NCBI RefSeq assembly: GCF_000153485.2
Contig: NC_018721.1
Location: 3,658,001 to 3,722,000 of the forward strand
Length of the DNA stretch: 64,000 bases
Reading direction: 5' to 3'
Source of the DNA: Psychroflexus torquis ATCC 700755
GTDB lineage: Bacteria; Bacteroidota; Bacteroidia; Flavobacteriales; Flavobacteriaceae
Part shown: one piece after another, positions 31,018 through 48,092 of the stretch
Layout of the letters: each line of letters opens with the position of its first letter
How positions within the stretch are numbered: the stretch's first letter is position 1
Notes under the pieces: model-generated
What the model was told of the DNA's origin: nothing
The model's input: only the letters and a program-made list of their open reading frames with translations
Databases searched by the model: none
Position numbers and translations under genes: made by a program

Positions 31018-32058
31018 TGCGAATCAAGAGTTAAACAATAGTGTTATAAATGCTGCTGCCAGTCGACCATAAACATGTAGATTTAAGCCTTTAGTAGATC
31101 TTACTTTGCTAGCTTTTTGTATGTCTGATTTTTCAATAAGCCAACTAAATAGCGCTTCAATTGGTTGTCTAATTTTGGATACAGCTCTTGAATATAAATC
31201 GTTTGCAGCGCGATCAAACTTTTTTAAAACATCGGGCATTCCTTTTACAGCCTTCACTGGTGTTAACATTTCCGAATTAAAATTAGCATACATATCTGTG
31301 AAAAAACTTTTAGATTGATATATTTTATCCCCAAAAAACGTTCGATTTTCTTTTTCTGACCAAGCTTCTTTAAATAGCGCAAAGTCGTTTACAGAAGCCG
31401 CAGTAAATATAATTTGTTCTGGATGTGGTAATTTAGTTGGGTTACAAAACCCTAAAGCATGCAATTTCATTCCATAATAATACATGCTTTTTGTGGAGCA
31501 AAATCCTTTATCTGTAATATCGGGTGCAACTTTACCCGAGCGTTTTCCAGAGCAAGTGACAATAGGCATTGAATCTAATACGCTAAATTTTGTCGAACAT
31601 TCCTTTGGTGTAAATTCGGTTAAAATCATCCCTACAAGAGTATTCATAACATTAGAAAGCCTATTTATTCTGCGGTTAAAAGCTTGATAGCTAACTAAAT
31701 CTGGAAACCAACTCAATAAATACTCACTTGCAAATTGATGTATTTTATTCATTTTAAAAATCCCTTGATGCTCCATTACAAATAGATAAATCGTGACGAT
31801 TTCTTGATCTGTAAGTTTTGGAGTATTATTATTGCTAAAACGCATAGATTCGAATTGTAGCTGTTCATCAAACTTTTTACATACATAATCATATAATTTT
31901 ACTAACTTATAATCCTTGTTATTGTTCTTTGTATTCAAAATAATCTCGTTGAAATTGACTATTAAGATACTGAAAATCAATAACTTAAACAAGTTTAAGA
32001 GGCTGATTTTCAACTAATTAAACTTGTTTTTTATCTTTATTTCAAACCTTGATTCGCA
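31018..32058 (-). mobile_element. IS982-family insertion sequence, copy 1 (1041 bp)
   Basis: Ends TGCGAATCAAG and CTTGATTCGCA form the terminal inverted repeats. The copy is the same length as copy 2 (47052-48092) and differs at a handful of bases. The flanks (GTATTAA left, TTGTTAT right) do not match, so there is no target duplication here: one flank has been changed by deletion or recombination after insertion. Confidence 0.92.
31024..32013 (-). CDS. IS982-family transposase, copy 1
   Basis: A 329-residue DDE transposase of the IS982 type: N-terminal helical part with FDEQLQFESMRF and LTDQEIVTIYLF, then FSVLDSMPIVTCSGKRSGK with the first catalytic Asp, YYYGMKLHALG, FFGDKIYQSK (second Asp) and RQPIEALFSWLIEKSDIQ (catalytic Glu). 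The first codon is a TTG at 32011-32013; no ATG is available before conserved sequence. It is complete and presumably functional. It is almost identical to the copy at 47058-48047. Confidence 0.92.
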   Translation of the reverse strand: MKISLLNLFKLLIFSILIVNFNEIILNTKNNNKDYKLVKLYDYVCKKFDEQLQFESMRFSNNNTPKLTDQEIVTIYLFVMEHQGIFKMNKIHQFASEYLLSWFPDLVSYQAFNRRINRLSNVMNTLVGMILTEFTPKECSTKFSVLDSMPIVTCSGKRSGKVAPDITDKGFCSTKSMYYYGMKLHALGFCNPTKLPHPEQIIFTAASVNDFALFKEAWSEKENRTFFGDKIYQSKSFFTDMYANFNSEMLTPVKAVKGMPDVLKKFDRAANDLYSRAVSKIRQPIEALFSWLIEKSDIQKASKVRSTKGLNLHVYGRLAAAFITLLFNS

Positions 32059-34684: not shown

Positions 34685-37108
34685 ATGAAAAATAAATTAT
34701 TAGTGCTGTGCACCCTTTTGCCTTTAATAGGCTTTAGTCAATTGGATTTAAACTACCAACTACCACACAAAAACATACTTGAACTTGCAGATGCCCCTAT
34801 GCCACCATCTATGAGTATAAATCCCAATGGGAGTAAGGCTTTGCTTATTTACAGGAATCAATACCAAACTATTGTAGATCTAGCTGAAGATGAGTTAAGA
34901 TTGGCTGGTTTAAGAATAAATCCTAAAACAAATATCTCAAGTCGTACCCGTTTTTATGTGGATTTAAAATTATTTGATCCAAGTAAGAAAAAAGAATTTG
35001 AGATTCAAGATTTGCCTTCCAATCTTAAGATTTCAAATATCAATTGGTCTCCAAACTACAATTATATAGCATTCACAACTACTCTACCTACAGGAAATGA
35101 ATTATGGGTCATCGATTATAAAAAGAAATCTGCTAGTCGGTTGACTTCTGCTGTGGTTAATGGAAATTTGGGAACTACATTGGCATGGTTGCCAGACGAA
35201 TCTGGTATTTTGGTTAAGACTTTACCAAAAAAGCGGCAAAACCTCATTGATGCTGATAATAAAGTTCCAACGGGACCTACAGTTTCCGTTAATGAAGCAG
35301 GTGTTGAGGCTCAAAACCGAACCTATCAGGATCTTTTAAAGAATAAAGTTGATGAATTTAATTTTGAAGTTTTGGCAACTTCAGAAATTCATAAAGTAGA
35401 TTTAGAAGGCAACCAAAGTCTTTGGAAAACAGCGGCGATGTATGGAAGTATGTCTATTTCTCCAGATGGTAATTATGTGATGGTTTCAGAAATTAAAAAG
35501 CCATTTTCTTATATAGTTACTTACGGTAGATTTCCAACTTCACACACAATTTATACGGCAGATGGTGACTTAGCTCACCTTATTGCAGATATCCCCCTTA
35601 TGGAAGAAATGCCCAAAGGATTTATGTCTACCAGAACAGGCCCTAGAAATATGTCTTGGAGAGATGACCAACCAGCAACCCTAGTTTGGGTAGAAGCTTT
35701 AGACGGTGGAGATGCCGATACCGAAGTAGAGTTTAGAGATGAAGTGTATCAATTAAAAGCCCCTTTTACTGCTAAAAAAGAGGATTTAGCCAAAACTAAA
35801 TTGCGTTTTTCTGGAATAACTTGGGGAGATAAAACTACCGCTGTTTTAAGTGAATATTGGTGGAATACGAGAACCTTGAGAACGAGTATTTTTAATCCCT
35901 CCAATTCAGAAGTGGAGTCTGTCCTTTTTAACGAAAGAAATTATCAAAATACCTACGATGATCCAGGGAGTTTTGTAACCACAAAAAATAAATTGAATCA
36001 ATCTGTCTTGCAGATCTTGAACGGAAAACTAACGCTTACTGGACAGGGGTATTCCGAAGAAGGAAAATTTCCTTTTGTAGATGAATATGATTTGAAATCT
36101 AAAACCAGTAAACGCCTTTTCCAAGTTAAAGAGTCTGACTATTTAGAGTCTTTTGTGAATATGATCGATGCTAAAAAAGGCTTGATTCTAACTAGATTAG
36201 AAAGTAGTAATGAGTTTCCAAATTACTACTTTAGAAATTATAAAACCGGAAGTCTAGAGCAAATTTCCAACTTCGAAAATCCATTTAAGGCCATACAAAA
36301 TGTAGATAAAGAAGTTATTACTTACAAGCGTGATGATGGTCTTGAGCTTTCTGCTACCTTGTATCTTCCAGTAGGCTATGATAAAGAGAAGAAGGAAAAA
36401 ATGCCAATGTTGATGTGGGCTTATCCACGGGAGTATAAGGATAAAAATAGTGCTTCTCAAGTGACCTCTAGTAGCAAAGAATTTACTTATCCATACTATG
36501 GCTCCCCAATTTATTGGGTCAACAGAGGTTATGTCGTTTTGGACGATGCTGCTTTTCCTATCATTGGAGAAGGGGAGGAGCAACCCAATGACAGCTTCAA
36601 AACTCAATTGGTCGCCAATGCCAAAGCAGCTATCGACGCTGTGGATGAGCTAGGATATATCGACAGAAATAAAGTAGCTGTTGGAGGGCATAGTTATGGT
36701 GCGTTCATGACCGCCAATTTATTATCACATTCAGATCTTTTTGCGGCAGGTATCGCTCGTAGTGGAGCTTACAACCGTACGTTAACCCCCTTTGGTTTCC
36801 AGTCTGAAGAACGCAATTAATGGGAATCACCCGAGGTTTATAACACGATGTCTCCTTTTATGAATGCGCACAAGATGAAAACACCCTTATTGCTTATTCA
36901 TGGACAAGCCGATAATAATTCAGGAACCTATCCTATGCAAAGTGAGCGCTATTTCAACGCCTTAAAAGGGCTTGGTGCTCCCGCAAGATTGGTTATGTTA
37001 CCAAAAGAAAGTCACGGCTATGCTGCGAAAGAAAGTATCATGCATATGTTATGGGAGCAAGATCAATGGCTAGAAAAATATGTTAAAAACAGAGAACTGG
37101 AGGAATAA
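34685..37108 (+). pseudogene. S9-family serine peptidase with internal stop
   Basis: A signal peptide (MKNKLLVLCTLLPLIGFSQ) leads a glutamyl-endopeptidase-like S9 protein: N-terminal beta-propeller (~30-540) and alpha/beta hydrolase domain with the nucleophile in GGHSYGAFMTA. At 36818-36820 a TAA interrupts the frame between SEERN and WESPEVYNTMSPFM; the codon position is usually Tyr in relatives, so a single TAT/TAC to TAA change is likely. The frame resumes without shift and includes the catalytic Asp (IHGQADNNSG) and His (PKESHGYAAK) up to 37108. The truncated 711-residue product lacks two triad residues and should be inactive unless the stop is read through. Confidence 0.9.
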
Positions 37109-37179: not shown

Positions 37180-37497
37180 CAAGCCTTCAGAATGACACTT
37201 GCGAAATATCATTCCGACGTTCGTTAGGAGAAATCTCCTTGTCATTCCGACAGAGAAGCCCTTTTGCTTCGACGAGGAATCTTTTTGTCTTTAGGGAGAG
37301 ATTCTTCATTCGCGAAAAGCTCCTTTAGAATGACAGTAGCGTGTTGTCATTCCGACAGAGAAGTTTTTTACTTTGATGAGGAATCTTCTTGTCATTCCGA
37401 CAAAGAAGTTTTTTACTTCGACGAGGAATCTTCTTGTTTTTAGGTAGGGAGATTCTTCAGTCGCGAAAAGCTCCTTCAGAATGACAGTAGTGAAATG
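37180..37497. repeat. GTCAT/ATGAC palindromic repeat array 1
   Basis: Two to three units run from GTCATTCCGA to TCAGAATGAC, each with internal CTTCGACGAGGAATCTT and AGATTCTTCAGTCGCGAAAAG. They are in the same orientation as the larger array at 43283-45297. The array stops at GTCA exactly where the IS66-like frame begins. Confidence 0.88.
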
Positions 37498-37890
37498 TCA
37501 ATAAAGCCAACATATCAAGAGTTGTATGCGACGTTTACTTCTCGCGCTAGACGAGTAAATGAACTTGAAGGCTTGGCAAATCAGGACAAAGAATTGATCC
37601 AAGAGAATCAAGAATTAATTAAAGAGAACCGAGGTATCATAAAGCAAAATCAGCTACTGTTAAAAGAGAATAGACAGTTAAAGGATAAATTATTTACCTA
37701 CGAAAATCCAAAAAACAGTCGCAACAGCTCTATGCCTCATTCAAAGGATGAAAACCATCCTAAACCAAATCAAAGTTTGCGCAAATCATCTGATCGAAAA
37801 GTAGGCGGTCAAAAAGGACGAAAAGGTAAAACTTTAGAGATGACAGCTCATCCCGATGAGATTATAGAATTATACCAATTTAGTTTTTAA
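37495..37890 (+). pseudogene. IS66-like transposase N-terminal remnant
   Basis: The frame gives a Gln/Glu/Lys/Asn coiled coil (residues ~20-75: KELIQENQELIKENRGII) followed by NPKNSRNSSMPHSKDEN and GGQKGRKGKTLEMTAHPDE, the N-terminal region of IS66-type TnpC proteins. It ends at residue ~125 where the MITE at 37871 begins; the zinc-binding and DDE domains are gone. Its ATG and Ser codons are the ATGTCA of the repeat array, so the native start has been lost too. The fragment is inert as a transposase. Confidence 0.75.
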
Positions 37891-38056
37891 ATGTTGCATT
37901 AAAAATTTGAATTATACTACGACGTAGCTCAGCACAGGTTTTTTACTTAGTTGAGGAAAAAAAATAAGCATAGCAATAGTTACGGTTTTATTTTATGACA
38001 ATTAGTAAATGAAAAAGAAACTGATTTTATACAACATTTGAATGCTAAATTGGTAT
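37871..38056. repeat. MITE-like element, copy 2 (186 bp)
   Basis: It runs from TATACCAATTTAG to CTAAATTGGTATT and is the reverse complement of 6859-7040 with scattered differences. It interrupts the IS66-like frame at codon ~126. The target flanks are AT (TTA on both sides), so a short TA-type duplication is possible but not provable. Confidence 0.78.
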
Positions 38057-38076
38057 TAGTTACGAAGAATTAAACT

Positions 38077-38441
38077 ACGGGTATTTTTTCTTCTCTTTTA
38101 AGAAACACGGGGGCTATTGAAAATGGCAAACTGGAAAAGGATTTCGGCAAACTTTTAATTTCTTCTGAAAATATTGAAGTTGGATTCAAGTTGATTTGGG
38201 ATACCTTTATTTTTATAAATAAGTGGCTTATCATTGTTGATGTTCAGTGGCTTACATGTAAAAAAATCGAATATTTTTCAGTAAACTATAGAAGCATTCT
38301 GGTTTAGCATAGAAACTGCCGAAAGTTTTGATCAGGCGGCAGAACTAAAGATTTGGATCTCCGGGGGAACAAACGCTTTCTGTGACAAAGAAATTCAACA
38401 AAAGTGTCGACATATATGAAGTTCAGAAGGTATTGGCATAA
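38077..38441 (+). pseudogene. PH-domain (bPH-type) protein remnant
   Basis: The sequence reads GIFSSLLRNTGAIENGKL, EKDFGKLLISSENIEVGFK, DTFIFINKWLIIVDVQWL, KKIEYFSVNYRSI, then after frameshifts FSIETAESFDQAAELKIWIS and TKKFNKSVDIYEVQKVLA with a stop. This is the bacterial PH-domain protein family of about 125 residues. The likely start codon is ACG (38077-38079) instead of ATG, and there are at least two frameshifts. The gene is dead. Confidence 0.65.
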
Positions 38442-38861
38442 TTTACACTATAAATCCTTCTCCCGGAACTGCTTAAAAAGTAGTTCCGACCTCTCCGAAT
38501 GAGAGGTGAAGGAAATCTCTGAGTCGTCGTGGAATTTATAATTGGAAATAACAGTCGGAGTTAATCGGGCTGTTATTGTATTAGGTTTCTTTGAAACTTG
38601 TGGATTAGATATCAGTGTTGTGTAAAATTTTATCGGTGAAATTTATCCCCCTTAAGATTGTATGTTTTCTTGTGAATATGTACATTTCAACTGCAAGGAT
38701 ATTTTCACCCAAATAGGTAGAAACAATGGAAAGGGAAAATACTGTGAAGAATTGTTTTTATTGACTTTTTCCACTTTTTTATTAACAATTACTTCCAGAT
38801 TTAAGGTTTAATATTACTTTGCAGCCTTATCAATTTGAAATACCAATAAATTAAAATTTAA
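38442..38861. other. leader region of the helicase module
   Basis: No gene is seen in these 420 bases. A weak hairpin GGAACT ... AGTTCC lies near 38466-38488. The last 100 bases are AT-rich; TACTTTGC at 38816-38823 resembles part of a Bacteroidetes -7 element and would place a transcript start ~30 bases before the ATG, but no good -33 TTG is at the right distance. Confidence 0.35.
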
Positions 38862-41675
38862 ATGAAGATTCTTTATTACAACGACCTTGACTTTTCCAAA
38901 GTAAAGAAACAATTTGAAAAAACATTGGGCTTTCTCCGCAATGGGGATTTCAAATCGGCGGAGATAAAAAAAATGCAGCCCACACCCTATTACAGGTCAA
39001 AACTTGATGTTGAAAACCGTTTGCTTTTTAAATTTGCGTCTTATGAAGGTAAAACCTATATACTTTTACTGGAAGTGATCCTCAACCATGAATACGAGAA
39101 ATCACGTTTTTTGAGGGGAGCTGAAGTGGATGAAGGAAAAATCAAAGCATTGCCATCAATAAAGGAAGTACAGCAGGAAGATATCCTTTCCCTTAGCTAT
39201 ATCAATTCCAAAGCTACCAGTTTCAACCTGTTGGATAAAGCTATCTCTTTTGATGAAAGTCAGGAGATTATTTTTCACAAGCGCCCCCCCGTTATCATTA
39301 TTGGGTCGGCCGGAAGTGGAAAAACAGCACTTACATTGGAAAAGATCAAGATGCTCAAAGGAAAGATTCTATATATTACTCTTTCGCCCTATCTCATAGA
39401 AAATTCAGCAAAACTCTATTATTCGTACGAATATGATAATGATAAACAGGAAGTGGAATTCCTGTCCTTCCATGATTTCATCCAAAGCACCCGTGTTACA
39501 CAAGGAAGGGAAATAGATTACAAAACATTCGAAAATTGGTTCAACAAGTTCCGTAACATCGCAAAGATCAAAGATTCACATAAGCTTTACGAGGAATTCA
39601 AAGGAGTGCTCACGGGGCTCAATGTAGAAAAGGAATTCCTGAGCAGGCAGGAATATGAAGCATTGGGCGTAAAACAATCTGTATTTCTCGCCGGCGAAAG
39701 ATCAGAAGTATATTCTTTTTTTGAAAAATACCTGCAATTCCTGAAAGAAAGCAATTTGTACGACATCAACATAATTTCACACCAATGGTTGCCTTTGGTC
39801 AAACCTATCTATGATTTTATCATCGTGGATGAAGTACAGGACTTTACCACGGTGCAGTTGCACCTTATCTTAAAATCCCTGAAAAAACCTGAGAATTTTA
39901 TTCTTTGTGGAGATTCCAATCAAATTGTCCATCCAAATTTTTTCTCCTGGTCAAGTGTCAAGTCTTATTTGTTTAAAAGTGAGCTGAAGGGCAAGGAAAT
40001 CAATATCCTCAAAACAAATTACCGAAATGCTCCTGCCGTTACTGACCTAGCCAACAAACTACTTAAAATCAAAACCAGCAGGTTTGGTTCCATTGACAAG
40101 GAGAGTGCTTACCTAGTCAATTCCATTAGCAAAAAAAATGGGGAAGTGGTGTTTTTGCAAAGCAACGATAAGGTTAAAGCTGATCTGAACCAAAATACCA
40201 AAGGCTCCACAAAATTTGCGGTCATTGTGATGCGGAATGAAGACAAAGCAGAAGCTAGGAAAATATTCAAAACCCCCTTGCTATTTTCCATTCATGAAGC
40301 AAAGGGTCTGGAATACGACAATATTATCCTGATGAATTTTATCAGTAACAACCATAGGGAGTTCCGTGAAATTACGGATGGTGTGGATCCTTCCGATATT
40401 AGCGATGCGCAAGGCATCAAATTTTCCCGCGGGAAGGACAAGACGGACAAATCCCTTGATGTCTATAAATTTTACATCAACTCCCTTTATGTCGCGATTA
40501 CCCGTGCAGTAGAGAACCTATACTTGCTGGAGGCATCTCCCAAACATGAGATCCTTAAGCTCCTTGACCTGGTTGAAACACGGGACAAAGTAGGGGTCAA
40601 GGAGCAAAAATCTTCCCTAGATGATTGGAAGCAGGAAGCAAACAAACTGGAAAAGCAGGGCAAAAAAGAACAGGCAGATGAAATTCGACAAAATCTCTTA
40701 AAGGTCCAGTCAACGCCCTGGGAGCCTCTTCTCAAAGAAAATATACAGCAATTAAAAATAGAAGCATTAGACCCGAATAGTTATAATAAAAAAGCAAAAG
40801 ATCTTCTTTTCCATTATTCTCTGGTCTATAACGATAGCGATGCCATTGATGAGTTGGTAGCCCATAAATACAGGCGTGCTGAGAGCCCAGAAAAAGAAAG
40901 GAATTCCCTTTTCCGAAAATACTATTCGCATTATAAAACTGATAACATCAAAATGTTGACTGTAAATATCAATAAGTACGGTATCAACTATAGGGATCAG
41001 TTCAACCTCACTCCTTTACTGGCGGCTGTTTATTCAGGCTCGGTGAAACTGATCAGGTTTTTACAGAAAAATGGGGCAGACAGTTCTGTTTTGGATAATG
41101 AAGGAAAAAATGCCCTGCAAGTCGCTTTAAACAAATCTCATTTTTCGAGAGGATATGCTGGAAATGAACTGGGCAGCATCTACAAACATATCCTTACAGA
41201 TAGTATTAAGGTAAAGGTGGATAGCAGGATGATCAAAATCGACAACCACAAGATAGAATATTTTTTGCTCAATTATATGATTGCCCTACAATCTGTACTT
41301 ATCAAAAACAAGAGTTGGGCAAAAGGGGTGAAAATGGCTGACTTTATAAGCACTGTGTACAATTATCCAGAAACCGTATTACCGCATTTTAGGAAGCAAA
41401 GGGCTTATTTAAATCAGGCCATTGCCCGTAATGAAATAGATGCCAGAGAAGACATCAGTAAAAAGTTGTTTTTAAGAGTCTCCAGGGGATTCTATGTCTT
41501 AAATCCTGAACTGGAGATTTTAATAAAGGAAGATTGGGTGAACATTTACGATTTAATGGGGGCAGAAAAAGTGGAGAAATTTGACGAGAAAGAATACATA
41601 CGGCTTGAGCGGGAAAAAATATTTAAAGGATTTCCTAAGGTGCGCAATACGGTTAAACCAAAAGGGATGAAGTAA
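38862..41675 (+). CDS. UvrD/Rep-type helicase with RelE-like N-terminus and ankyrin repeats
   Basis: A 937-residue protein. Residues 1-88 resemble a RelE/ParE-like fold: Lys-rich start, PTPYYRSKLDVENRLLFKF, then ILLLEVILNHEY. Residues ~130-560 form a superfamily 1 helicase core: Walker A GSAGSGKT (148-155), VDEVQDFT (322-329), LCGDSNQIVH (348-357), TNYRN (385-389), HEAKGLEYDNIIL (478-490) and YVAITRAVENLYLLE (543-557). A helical linker leads to two ankyrin repeats (~704-757, NLTPLLAAVYSGSVKLIRFL). The C-terminus (~840-900, YLNQAIARNEIDARED, LFLRVSRGFYVLNPEL) looks like a winged helix. It should be an ATP-dependent nucleic-acid translocase. Codon use and composition differ from neighbours, it is intact amid decay, and it is paired with the gene 29 bases on. 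Function unknown; defence or toxin-like action is inference. Confidence 0.85.
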   Translation: MKILYYNDLDFSKVKKQFEKTLGFLRNGDFKSAEIKKMQPTPYYRSKLDVENRLLFKFASYEGKTYILLLEVILNHEYEKSRFLRGAEVDEGKIKALPSIKEVQQEDILSLSYINSKATSFNLLDKAISFDESQEIIFHKRPPVIIIGSAGSGKTALTLEKIKMLKGKILYITLSPYLIENSAKLYYSYEYDNDKQEVEFLSFHDFIQSTRVTQGREIDYKTFENWFNKFRNIAKIKDSHKLYEEFKGVLTGLNVEKEFLSRQEYEALGVKQSVFLAGERSEVYSFFEKYLQFLKESNLYDINIISHQWLPLVKPIYDFIIVDEVQDFTTVQLHLILKSLKKPENFILCGDSNQIVHPNFFSWSSVKSYLFKSELKGKEINILKTNYRNAPAVTDLANKLLKIKTSRFGSIDKESAYLVNSISKKNGEVVFLQSNDKVKADLNQNTKGSTKFAVIVMRNEDKAEARKIFKTPLLFSIHEAKGLEYDNIILMNFISNNHREFREITDGVDPSDISDAQGIKFSRGKDKTDKSLDVYKFYINSLYVAITRAVENLYLLEASPKHEILKLLDLVETRDKVGVKEQKSSLDDWKQEANKLEKQGKKEQADEIRQNLLKVQSTPWEPLLKENIQQLKIEALDPNSYNKKAKDLLFHYSLVYNDSDAIDELVAHKYRRAESPEKERNSLFRKYYSHYKTDNIKMLTVNINKYGINYRDQFNLTPLLAAVYSGSVKLIRFLQKNGADSSVLDNEGKNALQVALNKSHFSRGYAGNELGSIYKHILTDSIKVKVDSRMIKIDNHKIEYFLLNYMIALQSVLIKNKSWAKGVKMADFISTVYNYPETVLPHFRKQRAYLNQAIARNEIDAREDISKKLFLRVSRGFYVLNPELEILIKEDWVNIYDLMGAEKVEKFDEKEYIRLEREKIFKGFPKVRNTVKPKGMK

Positions 41676-41704
41676 AAAAGCCTTATTTTAAAAATGATTT
41701 AATA

Positions 41705-43099
41705 ATGGATTGGAAACGAATATTGGATGTTTTAACAACAGAGGATAAAGTGCTGTTTTTAGAGGAACTGCTTGAAAAAAATGAACCGGTACGCTCGCAA
41801 TTTTTATCCCGGTTTAGGAGGGAATCTTTTAGTGATCCCTCATTGACCAGAGCGTCGCTTTTAAGGCTTTTTGAAGAAGAGAAAGCTGGGATTCTTAACG
41901 AGCTTGAAAGACTTAATTTTGTGGATTTTGATTGGGACAACTATATCCCACGGCACAGCGGTTATATTCCCGAATATGAGGCCTGTGAGTATATGGCGGA
42001 AGATATGGTAACAAAAATGTTCGATAAATATCGAGAAAAGATTTTGGTTTTCATCCGACAAGGAAAAGTTGCTGAAGGAGCCATGCTTTTAGCATCCGTT
42101 TATCAGTCTTGTACCGAAGCTTATTATGAAGAAAATTACGCTTTCGATGATACCGAAGAAGAATTCTTAAGACTGTTACAGCCCACCTATGAAGAGGTGC
42201 TGCAAGAGGTCAAATCTGTAATTACCAACGATAACCAAATCCTTGTATTTTTTGATGCCCTATTCACTCAATATTTGGGCTTTGGGGACGATCTAAAGTA
42301 TTTTGAAGCTTTATTGAAATCATTGGTACAAAATGAAAAAATGGCTGGTGAAGTGGAGGAACTGCTGAAAAAATACAAGGTTGGGGAAGAATTTTTACCA
42401 CAGCTTTTACTCCAGATATATGAACTTTTGGGCACCCGGGAAAACTGGCTGGATCATGCCCATCGCTATTTTAGGCAAGATAAGGAGCTGGCCGAGAAAT
42501 TAATGTTTCATTACCTCAAAGAGGACAACAAGAATTTCCTAAACACTGCTGGAGAAGTTTTTACTGCTTTCCCACATACCTTTGACCGTTTTATACTTGA
42601 AAACCTAGATATAAAGAAAGAAAGGGGGTATTACAAAATGGTGTTGCTCAGGATCACCGAGCATGAAAAGGATATCCACGCCTATAAAACATTGAAAGAA
42701 TTGCTTTCTTTAGAAGAAAAAGAAGTTTTTTTTGAAAGGATATGGGACAAGGTTTTTTTGACAAGGATTTTTAAACTGGAAAACTACTACGGCCGGATCC
42801 TCGATTTGGTAAATGCCAATCGCGACTCTTGGGAGTTGAATGAAATGATCCTGCCAATTATCCCTGTTTACCCCAAGGATTGTTTTGAGATTTTGGAAAA
42901 CAAAATTTCTCAATCGCTAGCCAGTGAGCGAGGAAGAAATTCTTATAAGAGGATTTTAAAATGGATGGAACTCCTCCGAAAAATACCTGGGGAATCAGAA
43001 AAAACCAATGGGATCATCCTGAACGCGTATCATCATAAACCCAATTTGCCGGCATTAAAAGATGAAATGAGAAAAGCTGGCCTGCCACGTCAATCTTAG
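41705..43099 (+). CDS. all-helical partner protein of the helicase
   Basis: A 464-residue acidic protein, seemingly all alpha-helical, with repeated helical hairpins of ~35-45 residues (for example KYREKILVFIRQGKVAEGAM and IYELLGTRENWLDHAHRYF). It has no signal peptide, membrane segment or catalytic motif. The repeat pattern is similar in feel to the helical C-terminal part of SWIM zinc-finger proteins, but the Cys/His motif is absent. It starts 29 bases after the helicase stop in the same direction, so both are one transcript. It could be a regulator, antitoxin-like partner or scaffold of the helicase. I do not recognise a named family. Confidence 0.7.
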   Translation: MDWKRILDVLTTEDKVLFLEELLEKNEPVRSQFLSRFRRESFSDPSLTRASLLRLFEEEKAGILNELERLNFVDFDWDNYIPRHSGYIPEYEACEYMAEDMVTKMFDKYREKILVFIRQGKVAEGAMLLASVYQSCTEAYYEENYAFDDTEEEFLRLLQPTYEEVLQEVKSVITNDNQILVFFDALFTQYLGFGDDLKYFEALLKSLVQNEKMAGEVEELLKKYKVGEEFLPQLLLQIYELLGTRENWLDHAHRYFRQDKELAEKLMFHYLKEDNKNFLNTAGEVFTAFPHTFDRFILENLDIKKERGYYKMVLLRITEHEKDIHAYKTLKELLSLEEKEVFFERIWDKVFLTRIFKLENYYGRILDLVNANRDSWELNEMILPIIPVYPKDCFEILENKISQSLASERGRNSYKRILKWMELLRKIPGESEKTNGIILNAYHHKPNLPALKDEMRKAGLPRQS

Positions 43100-43282
43100 G
43101 CTTCACTCTGAGACTAGTGCTAAAATAATTTATCCAGCGTAGGAAATTGACGTATTTTAATGATCTATAGAAAGTAAAAGAGTTAAAAAGGAAATAAAGT
43201 CTGGAGGATGAAAAAATTAGTTAATACCTAAGAATAAAATCTGCGGGAGAAAGCCAGAACTTTAGATAACGAGGAACGGCGA

Positions 43283-45297
43283 ATTGTCATTCCGACAATA
43301 AGAGAAATCTCAATGTCATTCCGACAGAGAAGTTTTCTACTTCGACGAGGAATCCTTTTATTTCAACATGGAATTTTTATGTTTTCGATAGGGAGAGATT
43401 CTTCAGTCGCTGAAAAAGCTCCTTCAGAATGACAGTAGTGAAATGTCATACCGACGATAGGAGGAATCTCAATGTCATTCCGACAAAGAAGTTTTTTACG
43501 TCGACGAGGAATCTTTTTATTTGAACACGAAATTTTTACGTTTTCGCTAGGGAGAGATTCTTCAGTCGCCGAAAAGGCTCTTTCAGAATGACAGCGGCGT
43601 ATTGTCATTTCGACAAAGAAGTTTTTTACTTCGACGAGGTTTTTTTTTATTTGAACACGAAATTTTCATGTTTTCGATAGGAAGAGATTCTTCAGTCGCC
43701 GAAAAGCTCCATCAGAATGACAGCGGCGGATTGTCATTCCGACGATAGGAGAAATCTCAATGTCATTCCGACAGAGAAGTTTTTTACTTTGACGAGGAAT
43801 CTTCTTGTTTGAATACGAATCTTTGTGTTTTCGATAGGGAGAGATTCTTCAGTCGCGAAAAGCTCCTTCAGAATGACAGTAGCGAAATGTCATTCCGACA
43901 GAGAAGTTTTTTTCTTCGACGAGGAATCTTCTTGTATTTCAACATGGATTTTTTACGTTTTAGATAGGGAGAGATTCTTCAGTCGCCGAAAAGCTCCTTT
44001 AGAATGACAGTAGCGTGTTGTCATTCCGACAGAGAAGTTTTTTACTTCGACGAGGAGTCTTCTTGTTTTTATGTAGGGAGATTCTTCAGTCGCGAAAAGG
44101 CTCTTTCAGAATGACAGTAATGAAAGGTCATACCGACGATAGGAGGAATCTCAATGTCATTTCGACAAAGAAGTTTTTTACTTCGACGAGGAATCTTTGT
44201 GTTTTCGATAGGGAGAGATTCTTCAGTCGCGAAAAGGCTCTTTCAGAATGACAGTAATGAAAGGTCATACCGACGATAGGAGGAATCTCAATGTCATTTC
44301 GACAAAGAAGTTTTTTACTTCGACGAGGAATCTTTGTGTTTTCGATAGGGAGAGATTCTTCAGTCGCGAAAAGCTTCTTCAGAATGACACTTGCGAAATG
44401 TCATTTCGACAAAGAAGTTTTTTACTTCGACGAGGAATCTTTTTATTTGAACACGGATTTTTTACATTTTCGATAGGGAGAGATTCTTCAGTCGCTGAAA
44501 AGCTCCTTCAGAATGACAGTGGCGTGTTGTCATTCTGGCAATAGGAGAAATCTCAATGTCATTCCGACAGAGAAGTTTTTTACTTCGACGAGGAATCTTT
44601 TTTTTATTTCAACACGAATTTTTATGTTTTTGATAAGGAGAGATTCTTCAGTCGCGAAAAGGCTCTTTCAGAATGACAGTAATGAAAGGTCATACCGACG
44701 ATAGGAGGAATCTCAATGTCATTCCGACAAAGAAGTTTTTTACTTCGACGAGGAATCTTCTTTTTATTTCAACACAGAATTTTTATGTTTTCGATAGGGA
44801 GAGATTCTTTAGTCGTGAAAAGCTCCTTCAGAATGACAGCAGTAAATTGTCATTCCGGCGATAGGAGAAATCTCAATGTCATTCCGACAAAGAAGTTTTT
44901 TACGTCGACGAGGAATCTTTTTATTTGAACACGAAATTTTTACGTTTTCGCTAGGGAGAGATTCTTCAGTCGCCGAAAAGCTCCTTCAGAATGACACTTG
45001 CGAAATGTCATTCCGACAAAGAAGTTTTTTACGTCGACGAGGAATCTTCTTGTCATTCCGACAAAGAAGTTTTTTACTTCGACGCGGAATCTTTGTGTTT
45101 TCGATATGGAGAGATTCTTCAGTCGCCGAAAAGGCTCTTTCAGAATGACACTTGCGAAATGTCATTCCGACAAAGAAGTTTTTTACTTCGACGAGGAATC
45201 TTCTTGTTTTTAGGTAGGGAGATTCTTTAGTCGCTGAAAAGCTCCTTCAGAATGACACATGCGTATTGTCATACCGACGATAGGAGGAATTTGTTTG
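43283..45297. repeat. GTCAT/ATGAC palindromic repeat array 2, ~14 units
   Basis: About fourteen units of ~105-160 bases run head to tail. A unit starts GTCATTCCGACAAAGAAG, continues TTACTTCGACGAGGAATCTT, a variable spacer (TTTCAACACG... or none), GATAGGGAGAGATTCTTCAG, TCGCGAAAAGCTCC and ends TTCAGAATGACAG. Several units have an extra GTCATACCGACGATAGGAGG lead. Ends GTCATTC/GAATGAC are inverted repeats. Short frames in all phases here are artefacts of the repetition, not genes. Confidence 0.93.
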
Positions 45298-47051: not shown

Positions 47052-48092
47052 TGCGAATCAAGAGTTAAACAATAGTGTTATAAATGCTGCTGCCAGTCGA
47101 CCATAAACATGTAGATTTAAGCCTTTAGTAGATCTTACTTTGCTAGCTTTTTGTATGTCTGATTTTTCAATAAGCCAACTAAATAGCGCTTCAATTGGTT
47201 GTCTAATTTTGGATACAGCTCTTGAATATAAATCGTTTGCAGCGCGATCAAACTTTTTTAAAACATCAGGCATTCCTTTTACAGCCTTCACTGGTGTTAA
47301 CATTTCCGAATTAAAATTAGTATACATATCTGTGAAAAAACTTTTAGATTGATATATTTTATCCCCAAAAAACGTTCGATTTTCTTTTTCTGACCAAGCT
47401 TCTTTAAATAGCGCAAAGTCGTTTACAGAAGCCGCAGTAAATATAATTTGTTCTGGATGTGGTAATTTAGTTGGGTTACAAAATCCTAAAGCATGCAGTT
47501 TCATTCCATAATAATACATGCTTTTTGTGGAGCAAAATCCTTTATCTGTAATCTCGGGTGCAACTTTACCCGAGCGTTTTCCAGAGCAAGTGACAATAGG
47601 CATTGAATCTAATACGCTAAATTTTGTCGAACATTCCTTTGGTGTAAATTCGGTTAAAAGCATCCCTACAAGAGTATTCATAACATTAGAAAGCCTATTT
47701 ATTCTGCGGTTAAAAGCTTGATAGCTACCTAAATCTGGAAACCAACTCAATAAATACTCACTTGCAAATTGATGTATTTTATTCATTTTAAAAATCCCTT
47801 GATGCTCCATTACAAATAGATAAATCGTGACGATTTCTTGATCTGTAAGTTTTGGAGTATTATTATTGCTAAAACGCATCGAATCGAATTGTAGCTGTTC
47901 ATCAAACTTTTCACATACATAATCATATAATTTTACTAACTTATAATCCTTGTTATTGCTCTTTGTATTCAAAATAATCTCGTTGAAATTGACTATTAAG
48001 ATACTGAAAATCAATAACTTAAACAAGTTTAAGAGGTTGTTTTTCAACTAATTAAACTTGTTTTTTATCTTTATTTCAAACCTTGATTCGCA
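47052..48092 (-). mobile_element. IS982-family insertion sequence, copy 2 (1041 bp)
   Basis: Ends TGCGAATCAAG and CTTGATTCGCA, as in copy 1. It is flanked by an exact 7-base target duplication TTACAAA (47045-47051 and 48093-48099). Removing the element and one duplicate restores the FG-GAP frame (LSNGYK/GSNTRDGL). Confidence 0.95.
47058..48047 (-). CDS. IS982-family transposase, copy 2
   Basis: A 329-residue transposase almost identical to copy 1, with the same catalytic motifs (LDSMPIVTCSGKRSGK, FFGDKIYQSK, PIEALFSWLIEKS). Differences are a few substitutions, for example KNNLLNL for KISLLNL near the start and GSYQAFN for VSYQAFN. The first codon is TTG at 48045-48047. It appears complete, and the clean target duplication suggests recent activity. 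Confidence 0.92.
   Translation of the reverse strand: MKNNLLNLFKLLIFSILIVNFNEIILNTKSNNKDYKLVKLYDYVCEKFDEQLQFDSMRFSNNNTPKLTDQEIVTIYLFVMEHQGIFKMNKIHQFASEYLLSWFPDLGSYQAFNRRINRLSNVMNTLVGMLLTEFTPKECSTKFSVLDSMPIVTCSGKRSGKVAPEITDKGFCSTKSMYYYGMKLHALGFCNPTKLPHPEQIIFTAASVNDFALFKEAWSEKENRTFFGDKIYQSKSFFTDMYTNFNSEMLTPVKAVKGMPDVLKKFDRAANDLYSRAVSKIRQPIEALFSWLIEKSDIQKASKVRSTKGLNLHVYGRLAAAFITLLFNS

Follow-up and report, generated by a model that had tools for sequence, protein, structure and literature searches.

A probably horizontally transferred SF1 ATPase gene and its all-helical neighbour in Psychroflexus torquis: a candidate genome-conflict module

We analysed a window of 64,000 nucleotides from Psychroflexus torquis ATCC 700755 (NC_018721.1, positions 3,658,001 to 3,722,000 of a genome that is a single contig of 4,321,832 bases), in which two adjacent genes form the subject of this study: gene 1, encoding a superfamily 1 (SF1) ATPase with additional parts, and gene 2, encoding an all-helical solenoid protein. 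According to the list of open reading frames (ORFs), both genes are complete, point in the same direction and are separated by a spacer of 29 bases. The pair comprises the following features, with positions counted from the start of the window:

38862..41675, + strand: gene 1, putative YoeB/RelE-like domain, SF1 (UvrD-type) ATPase and ankyrin repeats, 937 aa (ORF list, Pfam, PADLOC, AlphaFold2, Foldseek)
38862..39131, + strand: putative YoeB/RelE-like N-terminal domain, residues 1-90 (alignment, PDB profile, profile-profile score)
39249..40541, + strand: SF1 ATPase core, residues 130-560 (motif positions, Pfam UvrD-helicase, Foldseek)
40941..41141, + strand: ankyrin segment, residues 694-760 (Pfam Ank_2, E 8.2e-8; ankyrin proteins in the PDB)
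41202..41561, + strand: C-terminal mixed alpha/beta region, residues 781-900 (secondary structure of the model)
41705..43099, + strand: gene 2, all-helical solenoid partner, 464 aa (ORF list, AlphaFold2, 66 homologues)

Chance ORFs are ruled out because full-length homologues of both genes exist, and the start of gene 1 is kept, with M1 invariant in 42 aligned sequences (window copy included). Scans for promoters (20 promoter-like sites, 13.2 expected) and terminators (3 terminator-like sites, 4.5 expected) were uninformative.

The central part of the gene 1 protein has the Walker A, the DExxQD-type motif II and the motifs III-VI of a UvrD/Rep-type SF1 ATPase. Motif I (GSAGSGKT, residues 148-155), motif II (VDEVQD, 322-327) and motifs III (350-356), IV (385-389), V (476-485) and VI (542-549) are all intact. 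Pfam recognises UvrD-helicase (35.9 bits, above the cut-off of 23), UvrD_C_2, AAA_19 and ankyrin repeats in the protein, and the AlphaFold2 model, built from an alignment of 42 sequences with a mean predicted local distance difference test (pLDDT) of 81, has PcrA, UvrD and Rep as its best PDB matches in Foldseek. The protein falls outside the housekeeping PcrA/UvrD group, scoring 35.8 bits with the NCBIfam PcrA equivalog versus a cut-off of 911.2. Moreover, only 86 residues separate motifs IV and V, which in our judgement leaves too little room for a UvrD 2B domain. The top match in PADLOC is the GajB (Gabija) helicase model (E 1.9e-13), followed by a DRT-associated helicase model; the GajB-model matches, for which there is no curated cut-off, are partial and reach 47.9 bits, the best stretch being residues 474-556. 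No PADLOC model covers the pair, as gene 1 gives partial helicase matches only and gene 2 gives none.

Residues 1-90 of gene 1 form a separate alpha/beta part in the model, and several comparisons point to a likeness with the YoeB/RelE toxins. Plain Pfam is too weak for this domain, and we therefore used a profile-profile test with controls, in which 127 N-termini compared with 15 YoeB proteins from related genomes gave a score of 22.5 (P 0.0015); 13 other segments of gene 1 reached at most 12.5, 40 column shuffles at most 16.6 and the reversed profile 8.8. A PDB profile search with ten diverse N-termini ranked two YoeB entries first (E 0.07), and one gene 1 relative (P0108) is independently labelled as a helicase with a Txe/YoeB toxin by one database source. 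R45, R53, H76 and Y78 do not vary among the ten diverse N-termini aligned; for a ribosome-dependent RNase activity, which is putative here, the conserved R53, H76 and Y78 are the relevant observation. The position of the YoeB Glu is occupied by E, D or Q in the family alignment. Against this likeness stand an HHalign probability of 17%, unrelated chains that follow closely in the PDB profile search (from E 0.15) and the Pfam YoeB family itself, which was matched by only one of the ten N-termini (E 0.2), with unrelated families scoring better. Since the profile-profile score exceeds all controls yet the HHalign and Pfam results are weak, we regard the RelE-like match as suggestive, consistent but not proven. 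In most of their known settings, RelE-type domains act as effectors aimed at translation or RNA.

The AlphaFold2 model of gene 2 consists of helices only (mean pLDDT 89.8). At E up to 1 the protein matches no Pfam or PADLOC family, including the SWIM zinc finger and the PADLOC candidate PDC-S62, and its one NCBIfam match (E 0.11) lies far under the cut-off. The Foldseek matches were limited to alpha-solenoids of a generic kind and to designed helical proteins (best E 2.9e-4), with no template modelling score (TM-score) above 0.3 among the 50 matches listed; because these matches are generic, they do not name a function. Gene 2 has 66 relatives among 7995 scored candidates (5.8 billion proteins searched), 18 of them at least 56% identical and the remainder at most 34%, and a profile search gave 61 matches, of which 4 were new. 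In a phylum sample, 5/395 genomes match (its own, one nearly full length and three partial). The family is small and Bacteroidota-centred, with a conserved C-terminal PNLPALKDE stretch. We located 45 gene 2-family loci in genome contigs, of which one (L053) holds a 27-residue remnant only.

In 12 of the 45 partner loci (e.g. L028, L033, L035) the family member carries an N-terminal extension of ~110-200 residues, which looks SWIM-like. This label is weakened because every member scanned falls short of the Pfam cut-off: with PF04434, L033 reaches 19.4 bits against 19.6 and L028 and L035 score lower, and the extensions of L032 and L037 have no Pfam match at E 0.01. The N-terminal part of L033 matches PDC-S62 (E 1.1e-21), and in L013 a separate SWIM protein, whose gene lies two positions upstream of that for the partner, scores above the SWIM cut-off and likewise matches PDC-S62. 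Restriction genes lie nearby in two loci, a type I HsdR gene in L033 and a methylase/HSDR_N gene in L035. An uncharacterised protein of ~340 aa recurs beside the partner in L014, L027, L029, L030, L042 and L044-L046, and beside the remnant in L053; the L029 copy matches no Pfam, NCBIfam or PADLOC family. Its gene was located as follows:

L014, 8907-9887; L027, 2373-3386; L029, 11448-12461: ~340-aa companion gene

The codon use of both genes is clearly foreign. As a reference we sampled 20 stretches of 20 kb (400 kb in total) from this genome and took from them 135 ORFs of 300 aa or longer. The G+C content at third codon positions (GC3) is 0.436 in gene 1 and 0.406 in gene 2 compared to a reference mean of 0.290 (standard deviation 0.045), values reached by none and one of the 135 ORFs, respectively, and the two highest among the 35 window ORFs compared. 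The synonymous-codon divergence of gene 1 was reached by 0/30 and that of gene 2 by 1/125 sampled ORFs of comparable length. A preliminary description of the locus, made from the sequence, had named two intact genes 29 bases apart with different codon use, an SF1 UvrD/Rep-type ATPase and an all-helical partner, all of which agrees with our data. Its further statement of a raised G+C content applies to third positions; total G+C (0.386 and 0.389) is only mildly raised, being reached by 23/135 and 18/135 sampled ORFs. Likewise, the broken neighbours it described are found directly upstream of the pair (a split S9 peptidase gene and a DUF6444 fragment), but not across the window, which contains many long ORFs.

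The distribution of gene 1 among relatives is sporadic: it is present at full length in 2/60 related genomes and in 3/395 genomes of the class, each count including its own. In the 26 genomes of the same genus that were searched, a few of them incomplete, there was no full-length copy of either gene, and the sole trace was one 62-residue ankyrin-only match. On a wider scale there are at least 4698 gene 1 relatives among 7998 scored candidates, and 134 plasmid records carry relatives (101 from Shigella, 13 from Escherichia and the rest from Piscirickettsia, Methylosinus, Deinococcus, Thermus and others), 118 of these records being predicted to be mobilizable or conjugative. The rows listed for these plasmid relatives name them UvrD-helicase, ankyrin or hypothetical protein, or give no annotation. 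Gene 1 had no match in 50,697 phage records at E 1e-10, gene 2 likewise had none in phage records, and among viral contigs 47 stretches fitted a pattern, two of which were confirmed as helicase relatives (34-37% identical). The nearest gene 2 relative in a named genome, from Salegentibacter (62% identical), lies 3′ of genes for a DUF4138 protein and a response regulator, and 5′ of TraG-type and DUF5712 genes. DUF4138 proteins are of the TraN type and DUF5712 proteins act in mobilisation, and these neighbours place the relative inside a conjugative element.

The pair lies in an interval (37500-43277) that interrupts a repeat array; the features around the pair are:

37184..37500, + strand: repeat array, left part (repeat searches)
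37495..37890, + strand: DUF6444 fragment, left edge of interval (Pfam PF20042)
43277..45290, + strand: repeat array, right part, 14 copies of a 42-nt core

Where pieces of at least 100 bases are compared, the left and right parts are 69-84% alike, and the interval itself has no match to either part among the matches listed. A 26-base piece of the repeat has exact copies at 7 sites in the genome, all in the two flanks, and a looser piece is present at 55 sites in several clusters (reversed control 0). The core copies are ~107-160 bases apart and belong to a dispersed repeat, with similar clusters at about 280-283, 347.7-347.9, 2002.6-2004 and 3592-3597 kb of the genome. We suggest that an IS66-type element may have carried the pair, since the DUF6444 fragment in which the interval starts is the N-terminus of an IS66-type transposase and since the repeats on either side terminate with an imperfect match of 8 bases (AAATGTCA / AATTGTCA). 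Overall, the foreign codon use, the absence from same-genus genomes, the interrupted array, the plasmid relatives of the helicase and the conjugative element of Salegentibacter make horizontal transfer of the pair, as previously proposed, well supported. In the surroundings, the S9 peptidase gene (34685-37108) is split near 36820-36848 into two ORFs which both match PF00326, and two very similar DDE transposase ORFs (329 aa, - strand, 31024-32013 and 47058-48047) flank the stretch from 32 to 47 kb in which the pair lies.

The relatives of gene 2 are often found in the company of genes for adaptive immunity. Among the 45 partner loci, 14 contain cas genes or an array of clustered regularly interspaced short palindromic repeats (CRISPR), 13 of them found by a scan (L013, L014, L016, L018, L023, L025, L027, L031, L034, L043, L048, L051 and L052) and L049 added through Cas3 and DevR. 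L051 was counted on its array alone and L023 on Cas4 alone, and a three-repeat array in L047 was left out; the fraction is a lower bound because many partner loci are contig ends. The partner lies inside or beside type I CRISPR-Cas sets in L013, L014, L016, L018, L025, L031, L048, L049 and L052, and between two Cas6-like genes in L018, L025 and L031. For selected examples we verified the cas labels: in L018, Cas6 and Cas3 score above the NCBIfam cut-offs, and the Pfam cut-offs are passed by Cas1 in L027 and L043, Cas4 in L023 and L027, Cas6 in L013, L018 and L034 and Cas5 and Cas7 in L048, where Cas3 was checked as well; the Cas5- and Cas8-like labels in L018 matched no family. None of the 19 flanked helicase loci shows a cas match or an array, and the window has no match to any of 14 proteins taken from cas loci as queries (12 cas-type proteins and 2 neighbours). 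Likewise, none of the 20 stretches of the own genome matches the cas queries, although one holds the CRISPR array of this genome near its Cas1. This Cas1 gene, at 319 kb the only Cas1 match of the genome, and the CRISPR-like array of 26 repeats lie at ~319.0-322.5 kb (L133, L153), far from the pair.

Our preferred reading, which we hold tentatively and at somewhat less than even odds, is that the pair is an imported genome-conflict (defence-like) module, in which an ATPase with a ribosome- or RNA-directed RelE-like domain works with a solenoid adaptor. We propose it because RelE-type domains are mostly translation or RNA effectors and because relatives of the partner accompany CRISPR genes and, in two loci, restriction genes. 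The foreign codon use, the intact SF1 motifs, the partial GajB match, the plasmid relatives, the Salegentibacter locus and the pairing suggested for four other contigs also count in its favour, as do three of the 19 flanked helicase loci: L094 and L104 contain a type IIG restriction enzyme, its AAA neighbour or both, and L103 the AAA gene only. In such a module, the two proteins would act together and in contact; the ATPase could translocate on nucleic acid that is foreign or stalled, its RelE-like domain would engage the ribosome or RNA, either cleaving or merely binding it, and the solenoid might be an adaptor or sensor by which the ATPase is recruited or restrained. The target would be phage. 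A defence role of the pair is thus plausible but unproven, and the case for it comes from the partner family more than from the helicase. A bolder version, which we consider improbable, would see a new class of translation-targeting immunity, in which a widespread SF1 translocase is coupled to a RelE-type effector and a CRISPR-derived solenoid adaptor signals firing.

The two genes are paired in a narrow range only. The match lists of gene 1 and gene 2 both contain contigs sized exactly 6381, 7856, 6430 and 7534, and these identical sizes suggest pairing in four other contigs, with helicases 93, 91, 87 and 84% and partners 80, 83, 69 and 64% identical to those of the window; in a fifth common contig size, 30436, the partner is a 300-aa fragment. 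The following observations weigh against the conflict-module reading. A hidden Markov model (HMM) of the partner found nothing in 57 other helicase loci, representing 38 genes, and the helicase is alone in 36 of these genes with at least 0.9 kb visible downstream (L089, at a contig edge, and L090, a fragment, were set aside; the distant L159 and the partial L060 are included). Conversely, the helicase is present in 0/45 other partner loci, where the view extends >3 kb upstream in 28 and >3 kb to both sides in 21, and it is missing from the Salegentibacter locus in the 10 kb examined on each side. Five helicase clusters (75-81% identity, longest contigs 14.7-57 kb) have no partner in the list. 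Three changes are required to explain the paired state on the helicase tree, and on the partner tree paired members are dispersed and cluster no better than with shuffled labels, although short contigs hide true partners in this test. Furthermore, gene 1-type helicases are common in one other genus, which is Chlorobi-like as inferred from gene content (24/61 genomes, 1.5-3.3 Mb), and their chromosomal settings there look ordinary. Finally, eight window ORFs near the pair (a subset of the ORFs at 20-50.5 kb) have no PADLOC match. The conserved pairing and the enrichment in defence islands that the preliminary description expected are therefore not supported. The opposite case it had named, a lone housekeeping gene across Flavobacteriia, fits insofar as the helicase is usually alone, but not in its sporadic occurrence. 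Given the shared contig sizes on the one hand and the lone helicases and helicase-free partner loci on the other, the association appears to be real in one lineage and kept through moderate divergence, but not obligatory.

In the strongest rival, gene 1 is a self-sufficient orphan acting in stress, RNA or ribosome clearing or repair and the solenoid is a passenger in one lineage. We rate it as unlikely, though not far behind the conflict module. Besides the lone helicases, it is favoured by the genus with 24/61 positive genomes, in which the same large neighbour gene, presumably MetH, lies near the helicase in 8 flanked loci. On the other hand, the four same-size contigs are shared even though the partner has fallen to 64% identity, and this, together with the 29-base gap on one strand, suggests that the adjacency has been kept.

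A second rival, rather less probable, holds that the unit serves a mobile element in plasmid or conjugative maintenance or in counter-defence, the RelE-like domain being an addictive toxin held by the partner. The 134 plasmid records, most of them predicted to be mobilizable or conjugative, speak for it, as do toxin-antitoxin-type genes within ~5 kb of the helicase on Deinococcus (DUF1778, GNAT) and Thermus (CopG, PIN) plasmids, an XRE regulator adjoining the Methylosinus copy, a Mu-type transposase near L059 and the partner as conjugative-element cargo in Salegentibacter. However, no tra or mob gene was recognised on reading the window ORFs, and gene 2 had no match in 72,556 plasmid records, which argues against the partner as the general antitoxin of the plasmid helicases. 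That gene 1 is simply a decorated DNA repair helicase of the common UvrD/Rep type, as its PcrA, UvrD and Rep matches in Foldseek might imply, is very unlikely in view of its score far below the PcrA cut-off, its presence in only 3/395 genomes of the class, its RelE-like and ankyrin parts and its short spacing between motifs IV and V.

If the conflict-module reading is true, a family of at least 4698 relatives, mostly labelled UvrD, ankyrin or hypothetical in the rows listed, would represent a toxin-motor fusion, and a helical family known beside type I CRISPR genes would also work without CRISPR by partnering a different motor. Should it fail, the RelE-like/SF1/ankyrin architecture still represents a poorly described family that extends over several phyla and onto Shigella and E. 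coli plasmids. There may also be a link to eukaryotic TRANK1-like proteins, on which the literature searched showed nothing. In the titles and abstract openings of the literature searched, we found no description of the fusion or of the pair, and the passages seen of PMC1978522, PMC3710099 and PMC5512222 do not describe them either; SWIM-associated SNF2 ATPases are mentioned in a passage of PMC5512222.

Compared to known systems, the pair is neither Gabija as defined by GajA, nor a standard toxin-antitoxin module, nor part of a CRISPR locus. Like Gabija, it consists of two genes, one of them for a UvrD-type SF1 ATPase whose best PADLOC match, a partial one, is the GajB model. In contrast to Gabija, gene 1 adds RelE-like and ankyrin parts, and gene 2 encodes an alpha-solenoid that matches no nuclease family, nor any PADLOC or Pfam family that would make it an adjacent GajA OLD nuclease. 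The N-terminus of gene 1 bears a suggestive resemblance to the YoeB/RelE toxins and keeps the Arg and His/Tyr positions, but its domain is fused to a large ATPase, the Glu position varies between E, D and Q, and the ORF list, which goes down to 60 aa, has no small antitoxin gene beside it, the neighbour being 464 aa long. The plasmid orphans of Deinococcus, Methylosinus, Piscirickettsia and Shigella/E. coli cover 96-100% of the length of gene 1 at ~38-43% identity, and the Deinococcus and Methylosinus copies retain its RelE-like N-terminus, whereas gene 2 is unmatched on plasmids. In type I CRISPR-Cas loci from Bacteroidales and related bacteria (e.g. L018, L025, L031), partner-family proteins ~27-30% identical to gene 2 adjoin Cas6, Cas3, Cas7 and others, whereas gene 2 adjoins an SF1 ATPase in a window without cas matches. 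Finally, although gene 2 itself is without the N-terminal extension, the longer family members linked to PDC-S62 carry a C-terminal solenoid that is homologous to it.

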